Below, one piece after another: positions 1,264-18,596 of a DNA stretch of 64,000 nucleotides (the stretch's first letter is position 1; each line of letters opens with the position of its first letter). The stretch comes from Nitrospirota bacterium (GTDB lineage: Bacteria; Nitrospirota; Thermodesulfovibrionia; Thermodesulfovibrionales; SM23-35): positions 1 to 64,000 of the forward strand of contig JACUUX010000007.1 of the NCBI GenBank assembly GCA_014859105.1, in the 5' to 3' direction. Position numbers and translations under genes: made by a program. The notes beneath the pieces were generated by a model, which saw only the letters and a program-made list of their open reading frames with translations, was not told the origin of the DNA and made no database searches.

Positions 1264-1287
1264 TGTTAAGGAATTTTACATAATAAG

Positions 1288-1307
1288 TGTCCCCAGACCG
1301 TCCCCAG
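1288..1307 (+). promoter_or_regulatory. Candidate integrase arm-type site, left end of element B
   Basis: tgtccccagaccgtccccag: two gtccccag copies 11 bp apart; identical 20-mer at 18301-18320. Confidence 0.55.
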
Positions 1308-1309
1308 AA

Positions 1310-1495
1310 CTACTTAAGCTTTCCTCTTTGTTCCAAGTAACGTAGGATTAAAGTCTCAATCAACTCATTCCGGCTGTCGAAGTCTTTATCCTTCCTTACC
1401 GTCTCATCAAGGAGATTCAGGAGATCAGGATTAATCCTCATCGTAATAAGCTTAGACTTATTTTTAAACATCTTTCTTAATTGCTCTACTTTCAT
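1310..1495 (-). CDS. Ribbon-helix-helix (CopG-like) DNA-binding protein
   Basis: 61 aa, LITMRINPDLLNLLDETVRKDKDFDSRNELIETLILRYL; divergent from the recombinase. Confidence 0.7.
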   Translation of the reverse strand: MKVEQLRKMFKNKSKLITMRINPDLLNLLDETVRKDKDFDSRNELIETLILRYLEQRGKLK

Positions 1496-1542
1496 AAAAT
1501 AACTTTCCAGTTTGTATATGCAATAAGTATATCAAAAAAGTC

Positions 1543-1570
1543 TTGACAAGTAAATTATTTTAGTATATCT
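1543..1570 (+). promoter_or_regulatory. Candidate sigma70-type promoter for serine recombinase
   Basis: TTGACA at 1543-1548 followed by TATATCT-like -10 around 1564-1570. Confidence 0.5.
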
Positions 1571-1575
1571 TTAAT

Positions 1576-1608
1576 GTATATACAATTGAAAATTTTAATT
1601 GTATATAC
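1576..1608. promoter_or_regulatory. Perfect 12-bp inverted repeat operator/site
   Basis: gtatatacaatt-N9-aattgtatatac just downstream of the candidate promoter. Confidence 0.6.
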
Positions 1609-1635
1609 TAATGAGAATGAAAAAGGAGAAAGGAA

Positions 1636-2262
1636 ATGGAAAAGGAAAGACCCGTCATAAGAGCTGCATTGTACGCCCGCTGTTCTACCTCAGACAAAGG
1701 CCAGGATCCGGAGCTTCAGCTTGCGCCCCTTCGGGAATACTGCCAAAGGAGAGACCTTGCAATTTCAGGGGAATATATCGACAACGGTATCTCCGGTACT
1801 AAGGACCGCCGACCTGAACTTGATAGGCTTCTCGATGCAGCCAGAAAGAGGCAGGTTGACCTTATCCTGGTCTGGAAGCTGGATCGTTTCGGAAGGAGCC
1901 TGAAGCAACTCGTAACTGCCCTTGATGAGCTTTCAAATCTTGGAATAGGGTTTATATCTTATCAAGACAATATAGACCTTACTACACCACAGGGGAGGCT
2001 AATGTTTCACATTATCGGGGCTATGGCAGAGTTTGAGAGGGAACTGATACGTGAAAGAGTGAAGGCCGGCATTGAGAATGCCCGAAGGAAAGGTAAAAGG
2101 CTGGGCAGAAAGGCACTCGCTCCGATAGTCAGTGACAAGGTTATCGCATTAAGGCAGGATGGGTTCTCTTACCGGGACATTGCGCGGAAGCTCGAAGTCT
2201 CTCTTGGAAGCGTTCATAAAACCCTGTCAAATGCGGTTCCTGAAAGTGTTGCATTTGTTTAG
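1636..2262 (+). CDS. Serine recombinase (resolvase/invertase family)
   Basis: ALYARCSTSDKGQ...LVWKLDRFGRSLKQL...GRLMFHIIGAMAEFERELIRERVKAG...HTH C-terminus. Confidence 0.95.
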   Translation: MEKERPVIRAALYARCSTSDKGQDPELQLAPLREYCQRRDLAISGEYIDNGISGTKDRRPELDRLLDAARKRQVDLILVWKLDRFGRSLKQLVTALDELSNLGIGFISYQDNIDLTTPQGRLMFHIIGAMAEFERELIRERVKAGIENARRKGKRLGRKALAPIVSDKVIALRQDGFSYRDIARKLEVSLGSVHKTLSNAVPESVAFV

Positions 2263-2325
2263 GTTTTGGGTAGCTGTTTGGGGCGTTCGAAAAACAAGTC
2301 TTTTGTGGACAGAAAGGAGATTAAG

Positions 2326-2730
2326 ATGAAAAAGGCAGAAATAAAGTATTACATAGTAGGAGAAAGAATCTCTCTGGATGATGGAATTATCGGAGTAAAG
2401 AAAGATTCTAAGGACTTTCTTGAGTTAATAGCTCAACGTCTCAGGCGCGAAGGCGAAGTCTCGATTATCCCGCTTGCAAAAACCAGACAAGAGCTCTTTA
2501 GCAGGATACATTCTAAAACATTCGAGATGGAGAATCTCGTTAAGGCTATTAGGGATTTGGCTACACTGCACGAGAAAGAAGAGGATCGGGAATATGATCC
2601 TTCGGTGTATGACAGTTTATGTACGATAATAAATAACCTCTCTGATGAAATTGCAACGCTGGCACACACAGCAGACACAAGTAAAGAAGAAGCCCGCTGC
2701 CTGAAACCATTAGATGAAAAATTATTATGA
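2326..2730 (+). CDS. Hypothetical protein
   Basis: ORF with internal ATG after AAGGAG; no recognised domain. Confidence 0.6.
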   Translation: MKKAEIKYYIVGERISLDDGIIGVKKDSKDFLELIAQRLRREGEVSIIPLAKTRQELFSRIHSKTFEMENLVKAIRDLATLHEKEEDREYDPSVYDSLCTIINNLSDEIATLAHTADTSKEEARCLKPLDEKLL

Positions 2731-2888
2731 TGCTGTGTTGCTTTAAGGAAGATAAAAACATCTTAGATCTCATAGAGCAGGTAATCGAGGAAGGCCGTAA
2801 TCTGAATGTAAGCAGCAGGCTTATTGCCGAGACCATCATTCAGAGGCTTCTGGAAATGACAAAGAAACAGAAAGGAGATAAAAGATAA
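2727..2888 (+). CDS. Small hypothetical protein (53 aa), translationally coupled (ATGATG overlap)
   Basis: MMLCCFKEDKNILDLIEQVIEEGRNLNVSSRLIAETIIQRLLEMTKKQKGDKR; absent from ORF track because it is short. Confidence 0.5.
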   Translation: MMLCCFKEDKNILDLIEQVIEEGRNLNVSSRLIAETIIQRLLEMTKKQKGDKR

Positions 2889-3096
2889 CGTTAAGGGATA
2901 TTAAAAGAGGTCGTTTATCCGTTGAACCCTAAAGCCCCTATTTCGCCTGAAACCGAAGAGACGATAGAACCCTTAGGCTTGCCTAAAATCGAACCGCCTG
3001 CGGTTGCTGAGAAGCCCACAGGGTATGTAAAGGAGTTACTCAGGGAAAGCCAAAGGTTTAGACTTTCTACAAAGGGTTATTGTATTCTTACAGAGC

Positions 3097-3294
3097 ATGC
3101 AAGACCCCTATGATAAAATTGTCTGGCGTGGCGTTATACAAATCTGTGCTGCAATGGGTATGAGTTGGCCGGCTGCTAAGAAAGAACTCAAAATGCTTCG
3201 GTGTTTGCGTTATATCAGCAATCGGCCTGTGGTTTACGTTGAAGCTTACAAAAAGGCTCTGGCAAAGTTTTACGGTGGGATTGACGACAACTGA
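3097..3294 (+). CDS. Small hypothetical protein
   Basis: 65 aa ORF in gene order; no recognised domain. Confidence 0.4.
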   Translation: MQDPYDKIVWRGVIQICAAMGMSWPAAKKELKMLRCLRYISNRPVVYVEAYKKALAKFYGGIDDN

Positions 3295-3371
3295 GATAAA
3301 GTAGAGCCTTGAGTGGGTACAATCCATAGGGCTTCCTACTGCGCCCAAGAAGATGTCACCCGAATAAGAAA

Positions 3372-3400
3372 TTGAACTAATAAACAATAATTGGTACAAT
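3372..3400 (+). promoter_or_regulatory. Candidate promoter of DUF6516/HTH module
   Basis: TTGAAC - 17 bp - TACAAT, 12 nt before ATG at 3412. Confidence 0.55.
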
Positions 3401-3411
3401 GAAACTACCAT

Positions 3412-3699
3412 ATGCAATCTCGATTGATTGTTCACGATAAGGTCAAGGAAGCCGATGGTAGTATTGTTGAGGTAAAGATCTGGAGCGTCCCGGTCTCTGA
3501 GGAGAAGAAACACGGTTTCAGATATTCACTGGCTTACATCAAGGCCGGAAAGTGCGTTGTATGTTACGACAATCATACAGGCAAAGGAGATCATCGGCAT
3601 TATATAGGCCGAGAGGAGCCTTACAGGTTTACGACTATCGACAAGCTCCTTGAGGACTTTTACAATGATATAAGGAGGCTTAAAGGCTATGAAGGTTAA
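3412..3699 (+). CDS. DUF6516-like protein (putative toxin)
   Basis: HDKVKEADGSIVEVKIWSVP...HGFRYSLAYIKAGKCVVCYDNHTGKGDHRHYIGREEPYRFTTIDKLLEDFYNDI; followed by overlapping HTH gene. Confidence 0.6.
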   Translation: MQSRLIVHDKVKEADGSIVEVKIWSVPVSEEKKHGFRYSLAYIKAGKCVVCYDNHTGKGDHRHYIGREEPYRFTTIDKLLEDFYNDIRRLKGYEG

Positions 3700-4069
3700 A
3701 AATGTAACCATAGGAATCAAGAGTGTCAAGGAAATGCTCGGCGAAGCAGGAGACGTGATGAAAAAGCTTGAACGGGGCGAAAAAGTACCTAAAAAAGGAC
3801 CCGGTATTTACTTTGATACCCTTGATACAATGAGAAAGGCAATAACAGAGGAGCGTATACGAATCATCAAAGTGATACGACAACGGCATCCAGCATCCAT
3901 CTATGAACTGGCAAAGATACTTGGCAGGAACATTAAGAATGTCTCAGACGATGTTCACTATCTTGCAGATCTCGGGTTAATTGAACTGCAGAAAGCTAAA
4001 ACAGACGGACGTGAGAAGAAGATACCCCGGGTGAATTATGAGAAGATCCGCCTTGAGATAGCGGTTTAG
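3689..4069 (+). CDS. Winged-HTH (HVO_A0114-like) regulator (putative antitoxin)
   Basis: ERIRIIKVIRQRHPASIYELAKILGRNIKNVSDDVHYLADLGLIEL; overlaps preceding ORF. Confidence 0.65.
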   Translation: MKVKNVTIGIKSVKEMLGEAGDVMKKLERGEKVPKKGPGIYFDTLDTMRKAITEERIRIIKVIRQRHPASIYELAKILGRNIKNVSDDVHYLADLGLIELQKAKTDGREKKIPRVNYEKIRLEIAV

Positions 4070-4142
4070 TTAAGACGGTAATCAGGGGATAGTCTTCCGG
4101 AGGCGAAAGCGGTTTTCTCCTGAGTTTAAGGAAGCATGGAGA

Positions 4143-5543
4143 ATGGAAAAAAAGAAGAAGAAGAAAAAGAGAAAGAGTATAAGTAAAAGTAAGGGAGTTA
4201 CCTATCCAGAATATCCTGGCGAGCCCAGACTTAAACCCACAAAGATGCTGTTATACGGGGAAAAGGAGTCTTCAGTAGATGGTTTTGCTATCACAGGCAA
4301 TTGGAATAAAACATCGATAAGGTTAACGATAGAAGCCTCACACGAAGATTGGAAAAAATTAAACGAGTACATTTCATTTAGACATTGTGAAATGTCACGA
4401 CGTCGTGAAGAACTTATCTCAAAATATATTACTTCTACTTCAAACGAAGATTTAAAGATAAACGCTATCGTAGCAGCCATTTCAGAACTTAATCCGGAGA
4501 CTAATTTCACCACAGAGGGCTTACCCAAAGTCGAAGCGATTGAGCAATATCTCGACTTACAGGTATCCATAAAAGAACGTGATCTTGCATGGCAGAGGTA
4601 CAAAGAACGACAGGAAGTTCATACGTCAACTGGTTTGAAGTCGGGAGTTGATGTTAATCATACTGTCGAATCCCCCGAAGAACGTTTGAGAAGGCTAAAA
4701 GGGGAGACTGGTATTACACAGATAGCTCCATCTGGACCCACGGTGATCAAGGAAGTGGAAACAAGGACAGTGAGTGCCTCCAGTCAGCTTATTTCTGAGT
4801 TTCTGGCTTCTTTTGTAATCCCTGCTGTTGAGAACTCCCCGGAGAGACTCTCAGACCCCAGACTATGGACAGGGAGATATGGCACTGATTTAAGGCCGCT
4901 TCGGGGACAACATGTCAATCAATGGTTCATTGATGATTTAAAAATAGCAGCAGCTCTCTTACATGCCCTTTTTAAATTTTTATTCCGTAAGGACAATCAA
5001 CAGTTTAAGGATTGTCAAGAACTTTTAAAATCGTTAACTATCCCTAAAAAATTCCCCCAAAATATTCGTCCGGCACTGGAAGGGAGTTCCCGAAAGCCTG
5101 ACTCCATAGCTTATACGGCTCGTTGTCTTCATTTGGTATTTGGTCAATATTTGAAACGTTGTAAAATTAGACCGTTTCCTTCTGATTTAAAGAGATTTGC
5201 AACTACCTACATATATGCTGGGAATGCCTCTTTGAAAAACCCAGATGTTAAAATTTTGGATTTAGTTGATAATTTTCTTTCTGGCTCTCAGAGTTATCAT
5301 GCACCACATATACCGAATAATTTCAATTTCCAGAAAAGATTGATTGATGCTGTGTGGCAATTATTTGTTCTTGACCTTATAGAGAACTTGGCTGAGGTTT
5401 ATTTGAACATTCATTCGCGTCAAGTAATACCGACGGATATACCTGAAGACTGGCCATTTGAAGAATATCCCTATCCTCTTCACTCCTCACATAAAGCCGT
5501 TTTATACAAAGCCATAGAAGCAGCCTTCCCGCCTCGTCAGTAA
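4143..5543 (+). CDS. Hypothetical protein with lysine-rich N-terminus and internal PEERLRRLKGE motif
   Basis: 466 aa ORF; shares HTxExPEERLRRLKGE with TerS-like protein at 16177. Confidence 0.7.
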   Translation: MEKKKKKKKRKSISKSKGVTYPEYPGEPRLKPTKMLLYGEKESSVDGFAITGNWNKTSIRLTIEASHEDWKKLNEYISFRHCEMSRRREELISKYITSTSNEDLKINAIVAAISELNPETNFTTEGLPKVEAIEQYLDLQVSIKERDLAWQRYKERQEVHTSTGLKSGVDVNHTVESPEERLRRLKGETGITQIAPSGPTVIKEVETRTVSASSQLISEFLASFVIPAVENSPERLSDPRLWTGRYGTDLRPLRGQHVNQWFIDDLKIAAALLHALFKFLFRKDNQQFKDCQELLKSLTIPKKFPQNIRPALEGSSRKPDSIAYTARCLHLVFGQYLKRCKIRPFPSDLKRFATTYIYAGNASLKNPDVKILDLVDNFLSGSQSYHAPHIPNNFNFQKRLIDAVWQLFVLDLIENLAEVYLNIHSRQVIPTDIPEDWPFEEYPYPLHSSHKAVLYKAIEAAFPPRQ

Positions 5544-5664
5544 TTCTTTACTTCAAAATTTACCAACCGACGTCTTTTTTTTTTGATGACGTCAGTGGTT
5601 TACACAAAATATTCTTTTATAGTTTCATATTTTTAAATTTATTTTTTCGAACATCGAGAAGGAG

Positions 5665-5931
5665 ATGCATATGCAAATTAAAAAGTTTCAGGATCCGTCT
5701 TTTCCAGCCGCATTCGATGCTCTCAAAAAAGATTACATAATAACTCCGCGGAATAACCCCGAGACGCAACTGGTCGAATTCGAAGTTCAGGGACAGAATA
5801 TCGACGAAGCGATTCAGGCAATTTACGAAAACAAGCCTGTCGGCGTCCTTGATTTCATCCGCGCGCTGAAAAGTTACAGGAGTGCGATTTTTGCATTGAA
5901 GAGGCAGAGAAATGGCGTCACCGCAAGTTGA
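5665..5931 (+). CDS. Small hypothetical phage-type protein
   Basis: 88 aa with AAGGAG upstream; overlaps replication gene. Confidence 0.55.
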   Translation: MHMQIKKFQDPSFPAAFDALKKDYIITPRNNPETQLVEFEVQGQNIDEAIQAIYENKPVGVLDFIRALKSYRSAIFALKRQRNGVTAS

Positions 5932-6676
5932 AAACGGCTATACAAAAATAGCAAACGAGATTCTTGAAGCACTTGCGAGAATACGAATACCGGGGGAGGC
6001 GGTGCAAGTACTTTTGATAATTATCAGGCTTACCTATGGCTTTCAAAAGAAGAAAGATAGCATCTCTCTTTCACAATTCTACTTAAAGACGGGAATCGCT
6101 AAATCTTCAATAATTCGGGCAATCAGGACATTAGAAAAGCTAAATCTCATTTACAAAAAAGTAAACGGAACAGTCACAGAGTATAGTATTAATAAGGATT
6201 TCGAGACTTGGAAGCCATTTACTAAAAAGTCAACGTTTACTTTTTCGTCAACAAACGTTTACAAAAAAGTAAAAAAACGTTTACTAAAAAGTAACCCACA
6301 AAAGAAAAAAGAAACTATTACAAAAGAAAACAGCGCCCCTGAGATTTTGAATCTTTCCAGTTTATTAGCTGATAAAATGCTTGCGAACAATCCTAAGCAT
6401 AGATCACTTAATGGGGAAAAAGAGTCAACAATTCAAAAGTGGGCTGATGCAATCGAGAAGCTCCACAGAATAGACAAGCAAACTGTCGAGGATATCAAAA
6501 CTGTAATTGAGTGGTCGCAAAAGGATCCTTTTTGGAAAGTGAATATCCTCTCAGGTGAAAAACTGCGAGAGAAGTGGGATGTGTTGTATCTGCAAGCTAA
6601 AGAAGCTAAAAAAAATCTAAGGGATTCTCACAGTGATCCGATCGACAAGCTCAAAAAAAAGATGGGGATAGCATGA
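5912..6676 (+). CDS. Phage replication protein O-like initiator
   Basis: N-terminus ENGYTKIANEILEALARIRIPGEAVQVLLIIIRLTYGFQKKKDSISLSQF matches phage O N-terminal domain pattern. Confidence 0.8.
   Translation: MASPQVENGYTKIANEILEALARIRIPGEAVQVLLIIIRLTYGFQKKKDSISLSQFYLKTGIAKSSIIRAIRTLEKLNLIYKKVNGTVTEYSINKDFETWKPFTKKSTFTFSSTNVYKKVKKRLLKSNPQKKKETITKENSAPEILNLSSLLADKMLANNPKHRSLNGEKESTIQKWADAIEKLHRIDKQTVEDIKTVIEWSQKDPFWKVNILSGEKLREKWDVLYLQAKEAKKNLRDSHSDPIDKLKKKMGIA
6218..6296. repeat. Iteron-like repeats within replication gene (candidate origin)
   Basis: Four RTTTACNaaaaaGT-like units with TTTAC at 6218, 6236, 6258, 6280; an additional unit at 6150. Confidence 0.5.
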
Positions 6677-6846
6677 TCACAGAGTTATTTGAAAATTACA
6701 CCTGCAAGACGTGCGGTAATCGCAATATTAAAAAGTTTGCAAGAATGAAATTATTGAATTTAAAAAATAGTGTCAGATATCGCTGCAAATGTCTTAAGTG
6801 CAATAACGAATTTATAAGAACTTATTCGAGAGGTGCGAAATTATAA
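6673..6846 (+). CDS. Small zinc-ribbon protein (57 aa)
   Basis: MITELFENYTCKTCGNRNIKKFARMKLLNLKNSVRYRCKCLKCNNEFIRTYSRGAKL; ATGA overlap with upstream gene. Confidence 0.6.
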   Translation: MITELFENYTCKTCGNRNIKKFARMKLLNLKNSVRYRCKCLKCNNEFIRTYSRGAKL

Positions 6847-8525
6847 CTGAATATCTCACTCAGCATAATATCTTTTACAAAGTCCAGGCAGGACAAGTTA
6901 CGATAAATTGTCCATTCTGTGGAGATAGCAAATATCACCTTTACATTGATCCTGAAAAGAAAGTCTTTTATTGTCATAAATGTAATGCAAAAGGCACCTG
7001 GTATCAGTTAGTGAAGCAGCTGCACCCTATTACCGGCATAGTTTCACCATTTGCACAGAATAACCCCGTCAGGCATCCAGCAGTTGACTATATCCAGCAA
7101 TGCCATAAACAGCTTATGGGACCTTCAGGTACCCAGGCGATCGAGTATCTCGACGCCCGGAAATTCACCATCGAGGCTATTCAGTATTTCCAGTTGGGGC
7201 TTGAAAGCAAAAACAATAAAGATTGGCTCGTTATCCCTTACCTCAAAGACGGAAAGCCTGTGAATGTTAAATATCGTTCATTGCCACCTGCGGAGAAAGA
7301 ATTCAGACGCTTAAAAGATGGGGAGACAATCCTGTTCAATCAAGACTGTCTTAAGGAGGCTAAAGACGAAGTCTTTATGGTCGAAGGCGAGATCGACTGT
7401 GTAGCTCTACATTCTCAGGGTTACAAAAACGTAGTTGCAACAACCATCGGAGCAGGTAGCTTTAAGCCTGAATGGATTGATTTACTCGACAAGTTTACTC
7501 GAATAAACGTTGTTTACGATTCTGACAATGCAGGACAGAAGGGAGCTAAAGAAGTTGCAAGACGCTTAGGATTCGAGAAATGCTTCAATGTCCTTTTGCC
7601 GGTGAAAGACGCAAACGATTTCTTCATCTCAGGCGCTGAAAAGGAAGATTTCGAGGAACTGGTCGGAAAGGCTGAGCAGTTTGACGTTGATAACATCATA
7701 GATTTCCAGAGAGCTATATTAAGTTTAAAAACATACTATCGAAATCGGAGAGATGATAGCGATTCTCTAAAACCACACTGGTCTTCAGTTGCAAGACTCA
7801 CAGGCCCCTTTGAAGCCGGAGACTTAATAACTGTCTCGGCAGTACCAAAGACCGGCAAAACAACCTGGTGCTTAAACATTGTTCATGATTTTGTGAAGAA
7901 AGATATCCCTTGTCTCTTTTACTGTCTTGAGATGCGGCCTGAGAGACTGGCTAAGAAGATTATCCAGATTGAGTTATCAGTTTCAGAAGAAGACCTGACA
8001 CCTGAGCTTATTGATGCTGGTTATTTAAGTTTACGCAATAAACCACTTTACTTCGGTTATAACTATCGCAAATGCAACCTTGATTTAGTAATAGAAACAA
8101 TTAGGCAAGGTATAAGACGTTATGGATTCAAGTTTATTGTGTTTGATAATCTTCACTACCTTGCACGCTCAATAACTAATCAGGTCCAAGAAGTATCAAT
8201 CATCTCGAAAACTTTCAAACTATTTGCTGAAGAAATGCAAATACCAATCATGTTAATAGCTCAGCCACGCAAGATCGCAGAAAATCAGATTATGGGAATG
8301 ATGGATTTAAGAGATAGCTCCAGCATTGGTGCTGACAGCGATTCAGTGATCATCCTTTATCGCAAAAAAATGAAAAGCGAAGATGGAACCGCTGAATCTT
8401 CTTATCAGCCTCTGACTCTTGTCAGAGTGGATGCTTCGAGATATAGAGCAGGGGGTGAGACCCTACTCCACTACAAGGGTGAAAAGTCAACATTCACCGA
8501 ATTAAATTCTAAAAAGGAGGATTAA
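6840..8525 (+). CDS. Primase-helicase (zinc finger + TOPRIM + DnaB/RecA-like), T7 gp4-type
   Basis: Reading frame extends upstream of the track start (7011) to include CPFCGDSKYHLYIDPEKKVFYCHKCNAKG; TOPRIM VEGEIDC...VYDSDNAGQKGA; Walker A SAVPKTGKTT. No ATG/GTG/TTG upstream of 7011 in this frame; ATT at 6840 after GAGAGGTG. Confidence 0.85.
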   Translation: MITEYLTQHNIFYKVQAGQVTINCPFCGDSKYHLYIDPEKKVFYCHKCNAKGTWYQLVKQLHPITGIVSPFAQNNPVRHPAVDYIQQCHKQLMGPSGTQAIEYLDARKFTIEAIQYFQLGLESKNNKDWLVIPYLKDGKPVNVKYRSLPPAEKEFRRLKDGETILFNQDCLKEAKDEVFMVEGEIDCVALHSQGYKNVVATTIGAGSFKPEWIDLLDKFTRINVVYDSDNAGQKGAKEVARRLGFEKCFNVLLPVKDANDFFISGAEKEDFEELVGKAEQFDVDNIIDFQRAILSLKTYYRNRRDDSDSLKPHWSSVARLTGPFEAGDLITVSAVPKTGKTTWCLNIVHDFVKKDIPCLFYCLEMRPERLAKKIIQIELSVSEEDLTPELIDAGYLSLRNKPLYFGYNYRKCNLDLVIETIRQGIRRYGFKFIVFDNLHYLARSITNQVQEVSIISKTFKLFAEEMQIPIMLIAQPRKIAENQIMGMMDLRDSSSIGADSDSVIILYRKKMKSEDGTAESSYQPLTLVRVDASRYRAGGETLLHYKGEKSTFTELNSKKED

Positions 8526-8529
8526 GTAA

Positions 8530-8778
8530 ATGATATGTCCAGCTTGTGGAAGTAATGAAGTAAGGCCCATTTACGGGGAAGCCGTAACAGGAACGCACGG
8601 AGTAAGACGGCAGTATCACTGTAAGGGGTGTGATTCCAAGTTTACAACGCTTGAGTTTTATGAGACCGGTGATAACGGAGCGGCGAGAATATTAACTCTT
8701 TTAGCCGGGATTAGGAAGCAGTATGACGCACTCGGTGAAATCATTAAAAGCATAGCATCGGGGCAGAAAACAGTCTAA
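8530..8778 (+). CDS. NrdR-N-like zinc-ribbon protein
   Basis: MICPACGSNEVRPIYGEAVTGTHGVRRQYHCKGCDSKFTTLE. Confidence 0.7.
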   Translation: MICPACGSNEVRPIYGEAVTGTHGVRRQYHCKGCDSKFTTLEFYETGDNGAARILTLLAGIRKQYDALGEIIKSIASGQKTV

Positions 8779-8793
8779 GGGAGGTAACACGTA

Positions 8794-9837
8794 ATGCCAA
8801 CAAATAAGAATACCAGACTTTACACAGACGAGGATCTCGATAAATTCAAATCGCCAGAAGCATCGGCAGCTGATAGTTATCAGAGTTTTAAAAATCTTCT
8901 CGGAGGGCAGGCTGGTAAGCTGGTCGGTATTGATCTAACTAAACCAAGGGCTACTACAGAGCCTACAGGTGCCTTGACAGCGGGTGCGGAAAGAACTCTT
9001 CCAGCAATACAGCGATCAGATGTTTCATCGTTGGCCAGAGAAGGACACACATTTACGAATAAAGATCTCTTGGATTTATATGGACCTTCACGGGAAGAAA
9101 CAGGGACATCTACCTTGCCCTCTCGTGCTGCGGAGAGCACTTTACCTGAACCACCTAAACCTTTCGAGTTTTCTCCTGGGACGAGAGGACTCCGCCAGGA
9201 TATCATGAAAATGCTGCAACGCCCCGGGATTTATAAAAAAGAGTTGGAAAAGAGCCTACCCGCGCTTCAGCAAATGGAAGCGTCCGAGATTTCGGGTTAT
9301 GGGATAAGTAGCCTTCCGGAGATTTATAAGACAAGGGCGACGATCGCAAACGCACTTGGATTAACAGAAGCAGAAGTTGAGAATGTTTTGTCGGAAACTG
9401 AAGAACGTAGGAAGAAATTAAAGACGCTCCCAGCCTCTTATGAAGAAGAACAGGCAGGGAAGGAACGTATCGAGATGTTGAAGCATCCCCCGAAGGATGT
9501 AACAGCCAGCATTCTCGATGCGGCCACTAAATTTGCAGGGCATTTCAAGGATCCCGTCACTGGTGAATTCGACCAGTCTGCATACGAGTCTGCACTTCCC
9601 GGATTAATCAATTCTCTGAGAAAGCATGGCCTGATAGAAACACCGGAAAAAAAGACAAAACGAAGCTCAGAGCCAGACATATTCTTACAGGAAGAGGCAG
9701 AAAGAGATGAAAAGCGGCGACAGCAGAGGTGGTCAGATCTCATACTTGAGCCTGGTCAGACAATTAGACGGAATCCGGGTGATAACAAGTTGTACATAGT
9801 TGATCTCTACGGAAACATTGTAAGGCCGTACGAGTAA
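8794..9837 (+). CDS. Hypothetical phage-type protein with disordered N-terminus
   Basis: 347 aa ORF directly upstream of the giant ORF; SD AGGGAGG. Confidence 0.7.
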   Translation: MPTNKNTRLYTDEDLDKFKSPEASAADSYQSFKNLLGGQAGKLVGIDLTKPRATTEPTGALTAGAERTLPAIQRSDVSSLAREGHTFTNKDLLDLYGPSREETGTSTLPSRAAESTLPEPPKPFEFSPGTRGLRQDIMKMLQRPGIYKKELEKSLPALQQMEASEISGYGISSLPEIYKTRATIANALGLTEAEVENVLSETEERRKKLKTLPASYEEEQAGKERIEMLKHPPKDVTASILDAATKFAGHFKDPVTGEFDQSAYESALPGLINSLRKHGLIETPEKKTKRSSEPDIFLQEEAERDEKRRQQRWSDLILEPGQTIRRNPGDNKLYIVDLYGNIVRPYE

Positions 9838-9860
9838 AGCGTTAATGAAAGGAAAGAAAT

Positions 9861-12800
9861 ATGAATAATCCGAATAACCCCCTGCAGTGGGAGGATGTCA
9901 CAGAGCAGATAAGACCGCGAAGAACACCTGATGTTTTAAAGGGGCCGGATGTTGCCAACGAGGCTTTAAAGCCTGAGACAACACCTTCAAATCCGCTGGA
10001 ATGGGAGGACTTTACCCCGCAGATCATGAAATCAAGAGCTCCTGTTGTGTCCCCTGGTCCCACAGGCCAAGTTTCTTCCAATGCTTTAAGCTGGCCGGAT
10101 GTTACTCAGGAGTTCCTTCCATCGAGATCACCTACTAAACAGCCAGAGCAGATATCCCCTGAATCCACATTACCTGTCAGGGAGACTCTCAAGAAAACAG
10201 GTGAGGCGGTTATGCGTCCCTTCAAAGCCCAGGCTGCAAAAGTTGGTGAGGCGTTTCACAGAGGCATGGCAGGGTTTACGAAAGGGTTAACGGATGTTGC
10301 CGATTATGTCGGCGAGAAGACTGGACTATATGAACTTGGTGAAAACGTAGGAATTCCGAGAAGCAGCGGGATTCTGCAGAAGGCCATTAAGACCTATTCC
10401 GAGAAATCTGAGCACTGGCACAAGCGATCTGAGGAGATCGGAACGAATGTCATTGATGAGTTGCTCGGCGAAGCAGTCGGCGGAGCCGTGCCAGGCGTTA
10501 CCGAGTTTGCATTAAACGTTCCTTATGCAGCCTTGAGAGGGGCAGCCGAGGCGGAAAAACAAGGAAGGAGTGAAATCACCGGTGCATTGACTGAAGGTGC
10601 AAAGCGTGCCCTTCTCGGTCAAATATTCCATGCCGGTAATCTTATGAAGCAACCCTACTCAACTCTTGCAACCGGTACGGCTTTCGGAGCTCAGGCAGCG
10701 TCTGAAGGTGCAGGTCCAGAGGAAATAGCAAAAAGCGCAGGTACTGGACTTCTTTACGGCCTTCTCCACAGAGGAGGAAAATTAGGCCCGCGGGATGTCA
10801 TTGAGGGCGTTAAAGAGACATTTCCCATGAGATATAGAGAGATCCTCGATAAAAAAGCTCATGAAGCAGCAACATCGCCGCTGAATATCCGGCCAGAGCC
10901 TACGGAAGCACAGAAAGAAGCCGGCAACTATAAGAAAGGTCATATCGCTATTCAGGGGCTTGATATCTCAATCGAGAATCCAAAAGGCTCAACACGTTCA
11001 GGTGTTACAGCCGAAGGCAGAAAATGGGAAACTGAGGTTAAATCCCATTACGGATATATCAGGGGAACGAAAGGCAAAGACAAGGATCACATTGATACCT
11101 TTATAGGTGAACATCCTGAAAGCAAAAACGTCTTTGTTGTAAACCAGATTGACCCAAAAACAGGCAAATTCGATGAGCATAAAGTGATGCTCGGATTCCA
11201 GACAGAGAATGATGCACGCATCGGATATCTCGAAAACTATGAGCCGGGATGGAAGGGGCTTGGAAGTATTACGCCAATGTCAGTAAAGGAATTTAAAGAC
11301 TGGAGCAGGGAGGGAGAGAGAAAGGCCGAACCGGTAAAAACAGAAGCCACAATTACGGAGCCCGAGATTACCCGACCACCGAAATACAGAGCAGAAGTCA
11401 CACCGACTGAGGGAGAAATCCCCCCTCACATAGAAAGGGCAGTTCAAGAACCAAGAAAAGTTCCTGTCGAGGTTGCCGTCCAGACTAAACAGCTTACGAA
11501 AGACACACTGAATGAAAGTTTTGCATCGGGAATTATAAATCCTGCACAGCCTATCAGGTTAACAACTGTTGATGAACTGAGAGACATCATAAAGCGTGGA
11601 GTCCTTCGGGAAGGCCGAGATTTTGAAGGAAGAGCCGGGATATCTGCTCAGCTCGCAGGTGGAAAAAAGCCCATCGTTGCCTATGGAGCAAATGACAGAA
11701 TAAGCGCTGCTATTATTTTTCCTGAAGGTGCTGTAGAAGGAAGGGGAATGCAGCCGAATGAAGTTAAGATCAATCCTGCAATTTCACCTGAACAACTCCG
11801 ATTCGTTATTGACGGATATAGAGAACTCCTTACCTTCGAGGATCTGAAACGGATTGTCGAAGGAAGAGAAAAGGTCACAGTACCGGAGTTTGCACCTGAA
11901 GAAGGATTCAGAAGACCTGTAGAACCGGAATTACCGGAAGGAGAACCCGTTAAAAGAAGCGACATCGTTAACTTCCTTCAGGAGAAGCTTGATGTTCCAA
12001 TAAGAACCGGAAGGTTTACAGGTCAAGGTAGAGGAGTCCTCGGAATCTTCAAACCAAAAGAAGAAGTAGTCAGAACCAAGTTTGCAAATGACATTGAGAC
12101 AATGGCCCATGAAGTCGGCCATGGTTTACAGAAATTCCTATTCCCGGAATCAGTAACCCGTAGAGGTTACACAGAAGAAATCTTCAGTGCTTTCAAAGAC
12201 GAGCTCGAACCGATTGCAACAAAACCGAGACCCGGACAGCCGAAGACAACTGAAGGCTTTGCAGAGTTCATTCGTCTTTATGTCACCAATGAGAAGAAAG
12301 CCAGAGAGAAGGCCCCTCGGTTCTTCGAGCATTTCGAAAATATTCTGAATGAGAAATCACCTGAAGCAAGGGATATCCTTCTTGAGGCACGGAGTAACTT
12401 TAATCGTTGGGTCAAGCAGCCCTCGCTTGCACGAGTCCTGGGGCAGATATCGACAGGTGAACAGAGAAAGCGTCCTACAACCTTTAATGACCTTTACACT
12501 GCAACTGTTGATGACCTGCATCCCCTGAAGAAGATGGTCCAGGAAATGGCACGGGGTGAGGAACTGCCGATGAGTAAGGACCCGTACAAATTAGCAAGGC
12601 TTTATCGTGGATGGTGGGGGAAGGCCGATGCATTTTTAGAATACAGACCCTTTGACTACAACACATACGCATGGAAAGGAAAGCCCCTCAGAGAGATTCT
12701 CCCCCCTCTTAAAGATAACCTTGATGAATTCAGGGCCTATGTTATCTCAAAACGATCCATTGAGCTTCATGAAAGAGGCAAAGAGACCGGCATTCTTAAA

Positions 12801-14972
12801 AGAGATGCTAAGAAAATAGTTTCTGACTATGAGCAGAAATTCGGTAAGGCATTCGATGATTTAAAGGAGTATCAGGATCTTACACTGAAATATCTCAGAG
12901 ATAGCAATGTTTTAAGCACGAGGGATTACCTGAAGATTAAACAGCTTAACAGAGACTATGTCCCCTTTTACAGGGTGATGGAGACCGAGAAGCGGGGCGG
13001 ATTAGGAAAAGGTTTTCAAGCATATCAGCCTATCAAGGGCATAAAAGGTTCTTGGAGAGACATTGTAGACCCATTGGAATCCGTCATCAAGAATACATAT
13101 CTTTTTATCAACGCCGCCGAAAGAAACGCAATAGGTAAAGCTCTGGTTGACCTTGCAGGTAGCAAACAGGGGCTTGGTAAGTATGTCGAGAAAATTCCTC
13201 TATCAAAGCAAAAGATCACGGTCAAAATTTCCGAGGTAATTGAAGATCCGTTCATGAAAGAACTTTTCAAGAATACCGGTCTTTCAGAACAGACAGCCTC
13301 TATTTTCAGACCTTCTGCATTTCAGCCGAAAGACAACGTTATCTCTGTCTGGAATAAAGGCAGGCGTGAGATCTATCGAGTTCACCCTGAGATTGCAAGG
13401 ACCATGCAGGCAGTCGATAAAGAGCAGATGAACACCATCGTCAAGATTATGAGCTATCCTGCACGGTGGTTAAGAGCAGGTGCAACGCTGGCTCCTGAGT
13501 TTAGTGTAAGAAACCCGATAAGGGACAATTTCACAGCCTTTACATACAGCAAATATGGCTTTAAACCCGGAGTGGATTTCATAAAGGGATTATTCAATGT
13601 TACTAATAAGTCTGATCTTTACTGGCAGTGGACGAAGGCAGGCGGTCAACATGCGATGCTCGTATCCATGGATCGTGAGTATCTACGGAAAAACCTTGAT
13701 GCTGTTATACGGGGAAAAGGACCCTTCAGTCCCGAAACCTACAAGAACATTATCAAGAACCCAATGGAAGCACTCAGGATACTTTCAGAGTTTGGAGAAA
13801 AAGGAACACGTGTAGGTGAGTTCTTAAGGGGCGTCAGAAAAGAGGGGTTAACAAAGGAAGGTTTACAGAAGGCAGCCTTTGCATCCAGAGAAGTAACACT
13901 TGATTTTGCAAGGATAGGAGCGAAGACTAAGGCCGTAAACTCCCTCATCGCTTTCTGGAATGCGAATGTCCAGGGCTTTGACAAGATGGTTAGGGCATTC
14001 AAAGAAAACCCTGTTACTTCTACATTCAGGGCAATGGCAGCAATAACCTTACCCTCGATAATCCTTACGGTTATAAATAGACGGGATGAACGCTGGAAGG
14101 AAATCCCTCAGTGGCAGAAAGACCTCTTCTGGATTATCATGACGGAGGATCATATCTGGAGAATCCCGAAGCCCTTTGAACTCGGAATTCTTTTTGGAAC
14201 AGTCCCTGAGAGAATTACTGAATACATCCTGGATAACGACCCACGAGCTTTTAACGGAATCCTGAAAGCTATCGGTCAAGGGGCTTCACCGGGAGTCATA
14301 CCTACGGTAGCAGTACCTCTTCTTGAGAACTGGGCAAATAAGAGCTTTTTCCTTGACAGGCCGATAGTGTCAAGAGGCAAGGAAAAACTTATGCCTGAGT
14401 ATCAATATCAACCTTACACAACAGAAATCGGAAAGAGACTCGGCAGGATGATTGGCAGGATACCGGGTATAGGTGAGACTGCAGCAGCTTCACCTGCAAA
14501 GATAGAGAACCTTATCAGGGGATGGAGCGGGGGTCTTGGAATGCACATACTCAAGGCAGCCGATACTGGACTTAAGAAAGCGGGCGTATTGCCAGAGGAA
14601 GTGAAACCCTCTCGTACACTTTCTGATATTCCCTTCATAAAAGCCTTTGCTGTGAGACATCCCTCAGCCGGTGCTGAAAGCATCCAGAGGTTTTATGACA
14701 ACTACGAGAAGGCTTCTCAAACTCTCTCAACCGCAAGGGAATTAATCAGAGAAGGCAAACGTGAAGAAGCCGGGGAACTGTTAAATCTCGGCAAGAAATA
14801 CAAGCTCGATCAACATTACAAATCTCTCAGTAATGCCCATCAGTTGATAGATAAAGTTTATGCGAATCCTGAACTCACTTCGGAGGAGAAAAGGAAACTG
14901 ATTGATGAAATATATCTGAGTATGATTCGGATCGCTCGACACGGAAATAAATTACTGGAGAGACATGAATAA
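9861..14972 (+). CDS. Giant polyvalent-type protein (InPase-like domain, zincin metallopeptidase, LPD38-like C-terminal region)
   Basis: 1703 aa; NYKKGHIAIQGLDISIENPKGS...KDHIDTFIGEHPESKNVFVVNQIDP; HEVGH + EGFAEFIRLYV; GATLAPEFSVRNPIRDNFTAFTYSKYGFKPG. Confidence 0.75.
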   Translation: MNNPNNPLQWEDVTEQIRPRRTPDVLKGPDVANEALKPETTPSNPLEWEDFTPQIMKSRAPVVSPGPTGQVSSNALSWPDVTQEFLPSRSPTKQPEQISPESTLPVRETLKKTGEAVMRPFKAQAAKVGEAFHRGMAGFTKGLTDVADYVGEKTGLYELGENVGIPRSSGILQKAIKTYSEKSEHWHKRSEEIGTNVIDELLGEAVGGAVPGVTEFALNVPYAALRGAAEAEKQGRSEITGALTEGAKRALLGQIFHAGNLMKQPYSTLATGTAFGAQAASEGAGPEEIAKSAGTGLLYGLLHRGGKLGPRDVIEGVKETFPMRYREILDKKAHEAATSPLNIRPEPTEAQKEAGNYKKGHIAIQGLDISIENPKGSTRSGVTAEGRKWETEVKSHYGYIRGTKGKDKDHIDTFIGEHPESKNVFVVNQIDPKTGKFDEHKVMLGFQTENDARIGYLENYEPGWKGLGSITPMSVKEFKDWSREGERKAEPVKTEATITEPEITRPPKYRAEVTPTEGEIPPHIERAVQEPRKVPVEVAVQTKQLTKDTLNESFASGIINPAQPIRLTTVDELRDIIKRGVLREGRDFEGRAGISAQLAGGKKPIVAYGANDRISAAIIFPEGAVEGRGMQPNEVKINPAISPEQLRFVIDGYRELLTFEDLKRIVEGREKVTVPEFAPEEGFRRPVEPELPEGEPVKRSDIVNFLQEKLDVPIRTGRFTGQGRGVLGIFKPKEEVVRTKFANDIETMAHEVGHGLQKFLFPESVTRRGYTEEIFSAFKDELEPIATKPRPGQPKTTEGFAEFIRLYVTNEKKAREKAPRFFEHFENILNEKSPEARDILLEARSNFNRWVKQPSLARVLGQISTGEQRKRPTTFNDLYTATVDDLHPLKKMVQEMARGEELPMSKDPYKLARLYRGWWGKADAFLEYRPFDYNTYAWKGKPLREILPPLKDNLDEFRAYVISKRSIELHERGKETGILKRDAKKIVSDYEQKFGKAFDDLKEYQDLTLKYLRDSNVLSTRDYLKIKQLNRDYVPFYRVMETEKRGGLGKGFQAYQPIKGIKGSWRDIVDPLESVIKNTYLFINAAERNAIGKALVDLAGSKQGLGKYVEKIPLSKQKITVKISEVIEDPFMKELFKNTGLSEQTASIFRPSAFQPKDNVISVWNKGRREIYRVHPEIARTMQAVDKEQMNTIVKIMSYPARWLRAGATLAPEFSVRNPIRDNFTAFTYSKYGFKPGVDFIKGLFNVTNKSDLYWQWTKAGGQHAMLVSMDREYLRKNLDAVIRGKGPFSPETYKNIIKNPMEALRILSEFGEKGTRVGEFLRGVRKEGLTKEGLQKAAFASREVTLDFARIGAKTKAVNSLIAFWNANVQGFDKMVRAFKENPVTSTFRAMAAITLPSIILTVINRRDERWKEIPQWQKDLFWIIMTEDHIWRIPKPFELGILFGTVPERITEYILDNDPRAFNGILKAIGQGASPGVIPTVAVPLLENWANKSFFLDRPIVSRGKEKLMPEYQYQPYTTEIGKRLGRMIGRIPGIGETAAASPAKIENLIRGWSGGLGMHILKAADTGLKKAGVLPEEVKPSRTLSDIPFIKAFAVRHPSAGAESIQRFYDNYEKASQTLSTARELIREGKREEAGELLNLGKKYKLDQHYKSLSNAHQLIDKVYANPELTSEEKRKLIDEIYLSMIRIARHGNKLLERHE

Positions 14973-15171
14973 AGACGGCGATCGTGAACTGCTCCTTGCA
15001 ATGATCGGAATCTATAGGGATATGATTGCCGAGCTCATTGATGAAAAGCACCGTCTCATCAAGGAAAACTACTCTTTACGGAACTGGCTTGAGGATTACT
15101 GGAGGGAGTTTGCACTCATTGAATATGAAATCAAAGAAGCATCGGGAAGTAAGCAGCAAATTAACGCATAG
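14965..15171 (+). CDS. Small coiled-coil-like hypothetical
   Basis: 68 aa, overlaps upstream stop. Confidence 0.5.
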   Translation: MNKDGDRELLLAMIGIYRDMIAELIDEKHRLIKENYSLRNWLEDYWREFALIEYEIKEASGSKQQINA

Positions 15172-15180
15172 GAGGAAAGA

Positions 15181-15312
15181 GTGACAGAAGTAGACAGAAG
15201 AACAATCTTAAAAATGCAGGCTCTTATACTGGAGCTTGAGAGAAGAATTGAAGCACTCGAAAAAGCCCTACCGCAAAGGGAGAGGCCATGCCAACTGATA
15301 TCCAGAAATTAA
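15181..15312 (+). CDS. Small coiled-coil hypothetical (43 aa, GTG start)
   Basis: MTEVDRRTILKMQALILELERRIEALEKALPQRERPCQLISRN after AGGAGGAAAGA. Confidence 0.5.
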   Translation: MTEVDRRTILKMQALILELERRIEALEKALPQRERPCQLISRN

Positions 15313-15330
15313 AGTCAGAGAGGAGGTTTT

Positions 15331-15777
15331 ATGAGGAAAACGGATGATAGCGTGATTTTGCAAATGCATGAGGAGGGGAAATCGTTAAGGGAAATAGCTG
15401 AAAAGTTTGGATGCTCCAAGACTGCTATATCGAAACGGCTCAAGAGGGTAAAGGGTAAACCACCTGTTGACCCTGAAAAGAAAGTCTCAACTGTGGCAGA
15501 AGACAATCAACAGAAACCTATTATTCAACAAGCTGTCTCAACCGGTAATTATCTCAGGAAAATCGGCACCCGAGAAATCTTTGCTTATTCAGACCGTCTT
15601 ATGCAGAGGGGAGACATGGTCCCGTATGTTGGAGATATCCCCGTACCATCGGATTTTGAAGTTTCACAGTTTGAAATCACTTTCTTGAAATTCATAAGTG
15701 GTAAAGGAATGGTTAATGCTGAAGACTTCAAGAAGTTTACGGCCTCGTCAACCTCCGGGAGGAAAAATGCGAACTAA
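15331..15777 (+). CDS. HTH protein (resolvase/terminase-type HTH)
   Basis: DDSVILQMHEEGKSLREIAEKFGCSKTAISKRLKRV; SD GAGGAGG. Confidence 0.65.
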   Translation: MRKTDDSVILQMHEEGKSLREIAEKFGCSKTAISKRLKRVKGKPPVDPEKKVSTVAEDNQQKPIIQQAVSTGNYLRKIGTREIFAYSDRLMQRGDMVPYVGDIPVPSDFEVSQFEITFLKFISGKGMVNAEDFKKFTASSTSGRKNAN

Positions 15778-16180
15778 AGAGCAGGAATTCATCAAGGGAC
15801 TCTCCGCCGGGCTATCGGTATCGGTGGCAATGAAGCAAGCGGGCTATAGTTCTCGAACTGATGCAAGGCGAATCATACTGATGAATCCCCGGATTTGTAG
15901 CACCGTTATAACCATGCTTCTTGAGGGAACGGATCAGCCAGATGAAACTGTTATTGAACTCTTTAAGGAGCGATTGATTGATATAGTGCAGGCAAAAATA
16001 ACCGACTTCGTTTCCTTTGGCCCGGAAGGTGTCAAAATTAGGAAGAACTTCCCCAAGGAGAAAGCTTTCTGCATTGCTGAGCTCCAGATGAAAGATTCGG
16101 AAACTGTTACGTACATTCGTCTGCATGATGGACTTAAAGCCACAGAGCTTCTCCTCAGATATGCGAGGCTAACGTTATGA
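15767..16180 (+). CDS. Terminase small subunit-like protein, paralog 1
   Basis: KEQEFIKGLSAGLSVSVAMKQAGYSSRTDARRIILMNPRICSTVI...AKITDFVSFGPEGVKIRKN...HDGLKATELLLRY; ATG at 15767 after GGGAGG. Confidence 0.65.
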   Translation: MRTKEQEFIKGLSAGLSVSVAMKQAGYSSRTDARRIILMNPRICSTVITMLLEGTDQPDETVIELFKERLIDIVQAKITDFVSFGPEGVKIRKNFPKEKAFCIAELQMKDSETVTYIRLHDGLKATELLLRYARLTL

Positions 16181-16710
16181 GTAAAAAAGCAAACGGGGAA
16201 CTTACTAATAAACAGAAAGTGTTCGTCATTGAATACTGTCGTGATTTTAACGGATTGCAGGCTGCGATAAAAGCAGGGTATTCCCGGAAAACTGCTCGTG
16301 TTATTGCGCAGGAAAACTTGCTTAAACCTGCCATTCAAGAAAAAATTGCAGCAATTCTTCAAAAGCGTGAAGAGGAAGCAGAACTACAGGTTAAAGATCT
16401 TCAACGATACTGGAAGAACATAATGTTTACCAAAGTAACGGATGTTATTAGCTTCAATGAATCGGGAGTGAGCTTCAATAAGAACTCTGATGAGATTGAC
16501 CCGGATGTTGCTCTATCTCTTGAATCTGTCGAAGTAATTGAAAGCTTTTCAGGAAACGACAAAAGTATTCTGCGCACGAAGGTGAAGATGAAAGATGCAC
16601 TCAAGGCCAGCGAGAATTATGGCCGCACGATTGGTGCCTTCAGGGACAAGATAGATCACACTTTTGAGACACCTGAGGAGCGACTCAGAAGGCTCAAGGG
16701 TGAGAAATGA
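16177..16710 (+). CDS. Terminase small subunit (Terminase_2-like), paralog 2
   Basis: LTNKQKVFVIEYCRDFNGLQAAIKAGYSRKTARVIAQENLLKPAIQEKI...KVTDVISFNESGVSFNKN...KDALKASENYGR. Confidence 0.8.
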   Translation: MSKKANGELTNKQKVFVIEYCRDFNGLQAAIKAGYSRKTARVIAQENLLKPAIQEKIAAILQKREEEAELQVKDLQRYWKNIMFTKVTDVISFNESGVSFNKNSDEIDPDVALSLESVEVIESFSGNDKSILRTKVKMKDALKASENYGRTIGAFRDKIDHTFETPEERLRRLKGEK

Positions 16711-16823
16711 GGCCATATCTTAGTATGTCTGCGTTTGAGATTGCGCAACGTAGGGCATCTGAGGAAGCCGTTTTTAGAAGTTTCAATAGATTTTTCACAA
16801 AAATGAGCGGTAGGGAGGAATGA
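16707..16823 (+). CDS. Small ORF (38 aa), coupled
   Basis: MRPYLSMSAFEIAQRRASEEAVFRSFNRFFTKMSGREE; ATGA overlaps at both ends. Confidence 0.45.
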   Translation: MRPYLSMSAFEIAQRRASEEAVFRSFNRFFTKMSGREE

Positions 16824-17056
16824 TGAAAATTTGGAAATGTCAAGCTTGTGGCCATAAACACGAAATAAAAACCGAGGAGGCGAAAGCCGAGTCGGTCTTT
16901 ATTAATTTGTTAGATGCAGCTATTGAACTTTTAATTGTTGCTAAAATGCGAGGGGATAATAAACTTCCAGCAAACCCAGCAAATGATATAAGGCTATGGA
17001 CAGTGAGAATGCAAAATGCATGGGATGATCTTGATTATATAATTGTCTTTTTTTAA
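16820..17056 (+). CDS. Small protein with N-terminal CxxC
   Basis: KIWKCQACGHKHEI; GGGAGG SD. Confidence 0.5.
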   Translation: MMKIWKCQACGHKHEIKTEEAKAESVFINLLDAAIELLIVAKMRGDNKLPANPANDIRLWTVRMQNAWDDLDYIIVFF

Positions 17057-17086
17057 ATGGCTTTTTAGAAGGAATTTGAGCGAGCC

Positions 17087-18349
17087 TTGCAAACGATAAA
17101 TCAGAAAGAATTGACAAACCCTGAAGATATTTGTTACCTTTTCGATCAGCTTTTGCTGGTAGGCAATCCTATGCATGGTACCATCCGTACGAAAGAACTT
17201 TGTCCTGTCTGTAATGTGCCATTTAATCACATTCCCAAGTTAGGATTTATATGTTCAAAGCATAAAACCATGCCTACGAGATTCTTTGTAGATATTTCCT
17301 ATAAAGGACAAAGGATAAAAATTTACTCCCATAAGTCAGGCAGAGTTCTTGACAGCTATCAGATTGCAGTAGAAACTTTAGAGCACATCCGGTATGAGAT
17401 ACGTAATCATCTCTTTGACCCTTCAAAGTATGTGAAAGCAGATCTAAAAAACTATCTCTTTGAAAATGCAATCATAAGGTGGTTGGAAATAAAAGATGCT
17501 GCAGGAATTGTTACAACTCATAAATATCGGCAATTCTCAAGGGACTTCTTTAGTTTCTTCAAAGGGAAAGATATCAGAGAAATCAGGACACTTCACATTC
17601 ATGAATTTTATCATCAGCTACCGGACCATCTCTCAAACAAAACAAAGAAAAACATTATGGCATGTCTTCATAGTTTCTTCACCTGGCTAAGACAGCTTGA
17701 GTACATTGAAAAGATGCCTTCTTTCCCTGTAATCTCTGAGGATCAGCCTGAGTGGAAATGGATCGATGTGGACATCCAGGCTAAGATTTTACTTGCGATC
17801 CCTGAGAAAGATAGATATCTATATCTCTTCCTTGCCTTGCATGGCTGCCGACCTTCAGAGGCCAGGGGATTAAAGGTCAGGGATATAGACTTCAAACAGA
17901 AATCGATCACCATTAAGAGGACTTTTAGCGGTAAAAGCGGAAACATTCTCACAGAACATACAAAGACCAAAAGACTACGTGTTATTCCTATTAATCCCGA
18001 AATGACAGAAACGTTAAAAGACATCTGCAAAGATAAACTACCAGAAGCCTTTGTCTTTGTTAATCCAAGGACCGGAAAGCCTTATGCGAAATCAACTTTT
18101 CAGGAGATATGGCAGGATGCCTGTAAAAAAGCAGGGATTCAGGTAAAACCTTATGAGGGGCTAAGACATAGTTTTGCATCTCAGAGGGTATCCAGAGGAG
18201 TTGATATTTATCTTATTTCAAAGGTTCTTGGACACGCCGACATAAGGACAACCCAGCGTTATGCACATACCAATCTGGAAGCATTGAAGCAGGTTATGAC
18301 TGTCCCCAGACCGTCCCCAGTCGAGAAATTGACTAAAAATAATCTTTAA
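17087..18349 (+). CDS. Tyrosine recombinase/integrase of element B (true start may be ATG 17171)
   Basis: ALHGCRPSEARGLKVRDID...GLRHSFASQRVSRG...LGHADIRTTQRYAH; track start is TTG. Confidence 0.94.
   Translation: MQTINQKELTNPEDICYLFDQLLLVGNPMHGTIRTKELCPVCNVPFNHIPKLGFICSKHKTMPTRFFVDISYKGQRIKIYSHKSGRVLDSYQIAVETLEHIRYEIRNHLFDPSKYVKADLKNYLFENAIIRWLEIKDAAGIVTTHKYRQFSRDFFSFFKGKDIREIRTLHIHEFYHQLPDHLSNKTKKNIMACLHSFFTWLRQLEYIEKMPSFPVISEDQPEWKWIDVDIQAKILLAIPEKDRYLYLFLALHGCRPSEARGLKVRDIDFKQKSITIKRTFSGKSGNILTEHTKTKRLRVIPINPEMTETLKDICKDKLPEAFVFVNPRTGKPYAKSTFQEIWQDACKKAGIQVKPYEGLRHSFASQRVSRGVDIYLISKVLGHADIRTTQRYAHTNLEALKQVMTVPRPSPVEKLTKNNL
18301..18320 (+). promoter_or_regulatory. Candidate integrase arm-type site, right end of element B
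   Basis: tgtccccagaccgtccccag, identical 20-mer to 1288-1307. Confidence 0.55.
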
Positions 18350-18378
18350 TTATCAATAAGTTATAAACTATCGGAAGT

Positions 18379-18430
18379 GGTTCGAATCCCCTACCGTCCA
18401 CCATTTTTCCATTTATTTATCAATAAGTTA
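18379..18430 (+). repeat. Direct repeat / att core, right copy, with tRNA 3' end
   Basis: 51/52 identical to 1212-1263; preceding bases do not continue a tRNA. Confidence 0.9.
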
Positions 18431-18596
18431 CGCTGACGATTCCCTCTAAAAGTATGGCGCCAATAGTGCACCAGAACGCATTTTTTAACACTAAAATCTT
18501 TAGGAGAGTTTTAGGAATATTACTTAACCTCGACAATCCGTTCGTAGACTTTTCTGTGCCTTTGGATAAGAATAGCCTGTCTTGTCCCTTAAAGAT

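Follow-up and report, generated by a model that had tools for sequence, protein, structure and literature searches.

Phage satellites hijack packaging, capsid size and tails, and anti-phage genes are their usual cargo. The takeover known from PICI, P4, PICMI and AH14b concerns TerS, scaffold or capsid functions, and in the virion of AH14b, a 16.8-kb satellite, no protein of its own was detected (PMC4936722). Ejection proteins are known from short-tailed phages (T7 gp14-16, P22 gp7/16/20; PMC8954989, PMC10883804), while phage-type polyvalent proteins were described on phages and conjugative elements (Iyer et al., 2017; PMC5512222), in a report from which the word "satellite" is absent. Each of the three (polyvalent protein, ejection protein, satellite) is known by itself; in the openly licensed literature that we searched, we found neither their combination nor an earlier report of an ejection-type protein on a satellite.

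The element described here is similar to PICI, P4, PICMI and AH14b in size, integrase, own replication, integration at a tRNA/att site, the presence of TerS and the lack of capsid and tail genes. Unlike any satellite found in that literature, it carries an ejection-type protein, a polyvalent protein (PV) on an element without a capsid. It lies in the window, by which we mean the whole 64,000-nt stretch of Nitrospirota DNA that was analysed, and comprises 17,167 bp (17.17 kb; 1212-18431) between 53-bp direct repeats. Contig C91 of this genome carries an intact tRNA-Ala(CGC), and the first 25 nt of the repeat are identical to its 3′ end. The repeats enclose exactly the genes from the integrase through the ribbon-helix-helix (RHH) gene, coding density is 89% and none of the genes is broken. 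The features are as follows:

1212-1264, no strand: left attachment site, 25-nt tRNA-Ala(CGC) 3′ end and about 28 nt downstream
1310-1495, minus: 61-aa RHH regulator look-alike, read from sequence
1636-2262, plus: serine resolvase/invertase (PF00239, 5.7e-49; 31% identity to the resolvase of the G543 element described below, blastp E 8e-20)
3412-4069, plus: toxin-antitoxin-like pair, TumE toxin and HTH partner (PF20126, 2.2e-16; PF25212, 1.7e-24)
4143-5543, plus: orf4143, 466-aa protein, residues 115-188 similar to the C-terminal part of TerSb (phrog_2498, 2.3e-8; blastp vs. TerSb, E 5.5e-6)
5912-6676, plus: replication initiator of phage RepO/DnaD type (PF04492, 7.9e-21; phrog_277, 2.8e-34)
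7011-8525, plus: primase-helicase, Toprim and DnaB-type (PF03796, 4e-30; phrog_239, 4.6e-76)
8530-8778, plus: NrdR-like zinc-ribbon protein (PF22811, 5.6e-9)
8794-9837, plus: orf8794, 347-aa orphan directly 5′ of PV, by position only in the internal-virion-protein slot of phages and related elements
9861-14972, plus: PV, 1703-aa phage-type polyvalent protein
14965-15171, plus: 68-aa ORF overlapping the end of PV, zero matches in the family scan
15331-15777, plus: HTH protein directly 5′ of the TerS genes (PF13936, 4.8e-7)
15698-16180, plus: TerSa, divergent small terminase subunit (PF03592, 2.8e-5; genome scan 26.2 bits)
16177-16710, plus: TerSb, small terminase subunit (PF03592, 8e-31)
17087-18349, plus: tyrosine integrase of the element (PF00589, 3.4e-30; phrog_1, 1.6e-55)
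18379-18431, no strand: right attachment site, direct repeat of the left site

Outside the element, an integrase at 39-1193 represents a second, tandem element at the same tRNA-Ala site, which runs off the contig (the contig begins at window base 1). Searches of IMG/VR with the primase-helicase, TerSb, orf8794 and orf4143, and of 395 genomes of the phylum with the primase-helicase, detected no relatives of these proteins and no close relative of the element as a whole.

A first-pass annotation, made from the sequence, had proposed a 1703-aa polyvalent-type protein that fills about 30% of a compact element and combines an InPase-like region with a zincin, and our results bear this out. The ORF opens with ATG at 9861, ends with a stop at 14972, contains no internal stops and takes up 5112 of the 17,167 bp (29.8%). 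Its GC content of 46% is above that of the remainder of the element (41%) and of the host part (40.5%), which fits acquisition of PV from elsewhere. The protein is composed of:

residues about 3-90: three short N-terminal repeats
residues 349-482: InPase domain
residues about 520-668: domain without a family name, common to phage contig L071
residues about 680-860: zincin
residues 870-1703 (modelled as 860-1703): helical core, including LPD38 at 1409-1593

Pfam scans detected the InPase domain (PF18823, E 4.9e-60) over model positions 1-134 of 135 and LPD38 (PF18857, E 4.9e-49) over the full model (1-189 of 189). The pyrophosphatase motif DxDxxD, here DKDHID (residues 407-412), is present in 7 of 7 InPase rows. 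The zincin obtained no Pfam call; its HEVGH (750-754) and the downstream EGFAEF (798-803) are conserved in phage and satellite homologues. The earlier claim of a C-terminal RNPIRD region like LPD38 was right as to the presence of LPD38 and wrong as to the motif: RNPIRD (1217-1222) is conserved and lies outside LPD38, about 190 residues upstream of the match. AlphaFold domain parsing, which the annotation had suggested, predicted both the InPase and the zincin fold. The model of residues 340-880 (pLDDT about 90 over both domains) resembles solved type I pyrophosphatases (4z70, E 7e-5, probability 1.0), and its HEVGH part resembles, more weakly, the known zincin 4xm6 (E 0.016, probability 0.92). 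The core model (860-1703) showed a large helical fold (pLDDT 79, pTM 0.78) with counterparts among predicted phage proteins (best E 5e-45) and zero matches in the PDB at E<1, solved ejection proteins included. Structures of ejection proteins have been solved for only a few. One polypeptide thus unites three disparate effector domains (InPase, zincin and LPD38) with intact catalytic motifs (DxDxxD, HEVGH, EGFAEF), and the domains, the zincin and the large multidomain layout are those of the proteins of Iyer et al. (2017). The product of the 1703-aa ORF is a phage-type polyvalent protein.

The N-terminus of PV (window 9861-10130, residues 3-90) consists of the repeats NPLQWEDVTEQIRPRR, NPLEWEDFTPQIMKSR and NALSWPDVTQEFLPSR. 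The PVs of our set (69 loci) begin with a short motif that is specific to the lineage, is present in two or three copies and reads GFSDxEIxxY in many phages, and a significant self-repeat was present in residues 1-110 at 30 of 69 loci vs. 3-4 of 69 in other blocks, in counts that are not corrected for kinship. Possibly, these repeats act as a virion-loading signal.

Relatives of PV were detected in 629 phage records (tblastn). As seen in five complete phages (L008, L065, L068, L096, L131), PV forms the end of the block of tail-tube and internal-protein genes, and in L008, L065 and L068 the genes for tail tube A and tail tube B are followed by one for a protein of roughly 500 aa, then by PV and spike/fibre. 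The homologues hold a place like that of gp16 in short-tailed phages, behind the tail-tube genes (A/B) and the gene of a second internal protein, and by position we regard them as ejection-module proteins of a T7-like tail/ejection module. Given this internal position and the enzyme domains that they carry, they are not purely structural tail proteins. In contrast to the T7 and P22 ejection proteins, the PV core is without a match to solved structures, and the loading of PV into a virion is a prediction. Orf8794 of the window had no family match in Pfam, PHROG and NCBIfam scans and no homology to internal virion proteins detectable by blastp or hhalign; NCBIfam has no models for PV, TerS or the partner. 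In the PV tree, the window protein joins those of phages L008/L065 (99/99). Among side results, PF03237 TerL proved a poor test of PV-bearing contigs, most of which use another TerL type; G357 and G876, considered as satellites, were rejected, their contexts being those of an ordinary prophage/phage; and four further sets (G781/L133, G568, G1087, L128) were left out of the counts as PV contigs too short or unclear for classing.

The first-pass annotation saw no delivery machinery in the element. On this point it failed, as two TerS homologues are encoded at 15698-16180 (2.8e-5) and 16177-16710 (8e-31). TerSa is 28% identical (E 6e-9), and TerSb 38% identical over 151 aa (E 5e-22), to the TerS of a PV-bearing prophage. 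Results of family scans of the named ORFs and of tblastn with prophage proteins revealed no TerL, portal, capsid, tail or lysis genes in the element; no relaxase or T4SS was matched among the scanned window ORFs, and no AlpA-type match was obtained in the window. The element hence combines attachment sites and its own integrase with a replication module (RepO, primase-helicase) and two PF03592 genes without TerL, as PICI-like satellites do. We read it as a phage satellite, given that the scans detected none of the genes for TerL, portal, capsid, tail or relaxase. A search of the host genome for TerL of the Terminase_6N family, the one covered, gave no match, and thus no resident helper is known for this host. 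The stretch of orf4143 that resembles the C-terminus of TerSb makes three TerS-related proteins in one element, and from its sequence orf4143 may be a packaging inhibitor or adaptor. A 33-nt DNA repeat (4244-4276 and 13698-13730) had suggested orf4143 as a second PV, a candidate that we rejected as the two proteins are unrelated.

Parallel elements were found in Desulfovibrio-type genomes. A scan across GTDB genomes identified L098, a contig of Pseudodesulfovibrio that holds a partial element (truncated integrase, HTH, primase, a 574-aa protein, PV of 1595 aa, then tRNA-Thr) and no morphogenesis genes, and a search of 349 genomes of the same class gave three exactly bounded, tRNA-integrated elements of 14.8, 15.0 and 15.9 kb. 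These are G543 (14,774 bp, 51-bp att, tRNA-Arg), G534 (15,013 bp, 49-bp att, tRNA-Arg) and G591 (15.9 kb, tRNA-Leu), which have in common an integrase, an initiator, a 214-aa recombinase, a partner of 547-570 aa, PV of 1377-1400 aa and a serine resolvase. The sample is small, with four bounded elements and one partial, from mostly draft genomes. PV is paired with a homologous ejection-module partner in all four Desulfovibrio-type elements; in the window orf8794 takes this place, yet is not homologous. None of the Desulfovibrio-type elements has a recognisable TerS, hence packaging is not uniform across the elements. The G591 genome also holds a complete prophage (L142, L131) with TerS, TerL, portal, scaffold, tail tube A/B, partner, PV and fibre, so that here a PV homologue accompanies TerL and portal genes, a setting in which the annotation had suggested searching. 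The TerS of this prophage is the one that TerSa and TerSb of the window resemble. The PV of this prophage matched 5 of 5 elements, while its TerL, portal, scaffold, tail-tube and fibre proteins matched 0 of 5. The satellite partner is homologous to that of the prophage (E 1e-31 for G534).

Purifying selection acts on PV and its partner in these relatives: when the elements of G543 and G591 were compared, dN/dS was 0.067 for PV and 0.079 for the partner (dS 0.41-0.43); the values apply to the relatives, the window element having no close relative found. The same two elements have 7.7 kb in common at 88% DNA identity, with unrelated integrases and different tRNA sites, which indicates that the core is mobile and changes its integration module. 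In G534, PV is a mosaic, a recombinant with the PV of the G591 prophage: the two show 84% DNA identity over residues 331-1387 (3.2 kb), and the first 200 residues are closer to the satellite type. In the tree, the satellite label requires at least four phage/satellite changes. Together with the mosaic, this indicates that satellites and phages exchange the PV gene.

Like PICI and other satellites, relatives of the window element carry defence cargo. Two of them hold anti-phage genes, a SIR2-type gene (L129:13644-15209; PADLOC PDC-S25, 2e-150) in one, and in the other an HD dGTPase-like gene with a small DarG/PDC-M19A-like partner (L132:5800-7685). A Sporomusaceae contig (L097:15329-17183) likewise has this HD gene and a small partner of the same kind next to PV. 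At four loci (L130:12076-12432, L129:11694-12050, L132:9190-9546, L131:14383-14883), PV lies beside the gene of a small protein that probably has a signal peptide and copies the N-terminal motif region of PV (57% over 37 aa, E 4e-10 vs. the prophage PV); such a protein might serve superinfection exclusion as a decoy in the periplasm. The L130 proteins had zero matches in IMG/VR. A lone fragment of the PV zincin region among chromosomal genes of a deltaproteobacterium (L100:9881-10552) is probably a remnant. In a genome of the window host's order (G260), a partner fragment and a 2522-aa PV lie directly 3′ of host genes at a contig end (L153:14782-18000 and L154), with no tail genes in view; this may be another such element.

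At a probability of about two in three, we favour the explanation that the element is a satellite in a tRNA-Ala(CGC) array that uses helper particles and supplies a PV ejected with satellite DNA. Helper dependence, TerS function, virion loading, ejection and the enzyme activities are what we infer. The element would excise with its own integrase and be replicated by the RepO and primase-helicase that it encodes, its TerS proteins would steer the helper-phage terminase onto satellite DNA, and capsids and tails would come from the helper. PV, as an internal ejection-module protein, would be loaded into helper particles and enter the next cell ahead of or with the satellite DNA. There, the zincin may mature PV and the C-terminal core may assist DNA entry; the InPase may remove pyrophosphate or act on nucleotide-like signals by hydrolysis. 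Protease processing and pyrophosphate/nucleotide hydrolysis were proposed as post-assembly steps by Iyer et al. (PMC5512222). Virions of P22 incorporate foreign ejection proteins, and P22 gp16 and gp20 must match each other (PMC10883804), with which a satellite supplying a matched PV-partner pair would fit; the window partner is positional only.

PV might instead be turned as a weapon on the helper or on rivals, or be produced in the host as a defence effector; it would then not be loaded for delivery and would poison or block ejection complexes. Interference with helpers is frequent among satellites, defence genes are present in two related elements, and an exported protein mimicking the PV N-terminus adjoins PV. 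We still consider this unlikely, as the catalytic residues and the full-length architecture are conserved and PV is kept with its ejection-module partner in other elements, suggesting assembly over sabotage. Descent from a decaying T7-like temperate prophage that lost TerL through tail tube and kept PV and TerS would account for two kinds of phage genes, and a contig end and a tandem integrase do adjoin the element. Yet, every named ORF is open, att and integrase are intact at 89% coding density, and the order PV-TerS-int is not derivable by one deletion from TerS-TerL-...-IVP-PV. The same genes are, moreover, absent from the three exactly bounded 14.8-15.9 kb elements, whose PVs show dN/dS of 0.07, so that decay appears rather improbable.

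The first-pass annotation had left a choice between a virion and a conjugation route. Polyvalent proteins occur on conjugative elements too (PMC5512222), and an integrative mobilisable element could send PV through a type IV secretion system; this we regard as highly implausible, given TerS genes in the element, no relaxase or T4SS match among the scanned ORFs, and InPase and LPD38 domains reported only from phage-type polyvalent proteins (PMC5512222). The phage-only domains and the ejection-module homologues make a virion the likely route.

Coming back to the satellite that supplies its own PV, the existence of similar, separately assembled elements in other bacteria suggests that injection proteins are supplied by some satellites themselves. 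Tentatively, these may form a satellite class, assembled several times from phage parts, that takes over delivery as well as packaging by loading helper particles with ejection proteins of its own, perhaps evading superinfection exclusion aimed at those of the resident helper and bringing early effectors. P22 escapes SieA exclusion through changed ejection proteins (PMC10883804), which would link satellites with superinfection exclusion. The elements also offer compact natural systems for testing giant polyvalent proteins, as deletion of PV from them leaves capsid and tail genes unaffected. If carried, an injected multi-enzyme protein would give a capsid-less parasite control over the first minutes of infection.
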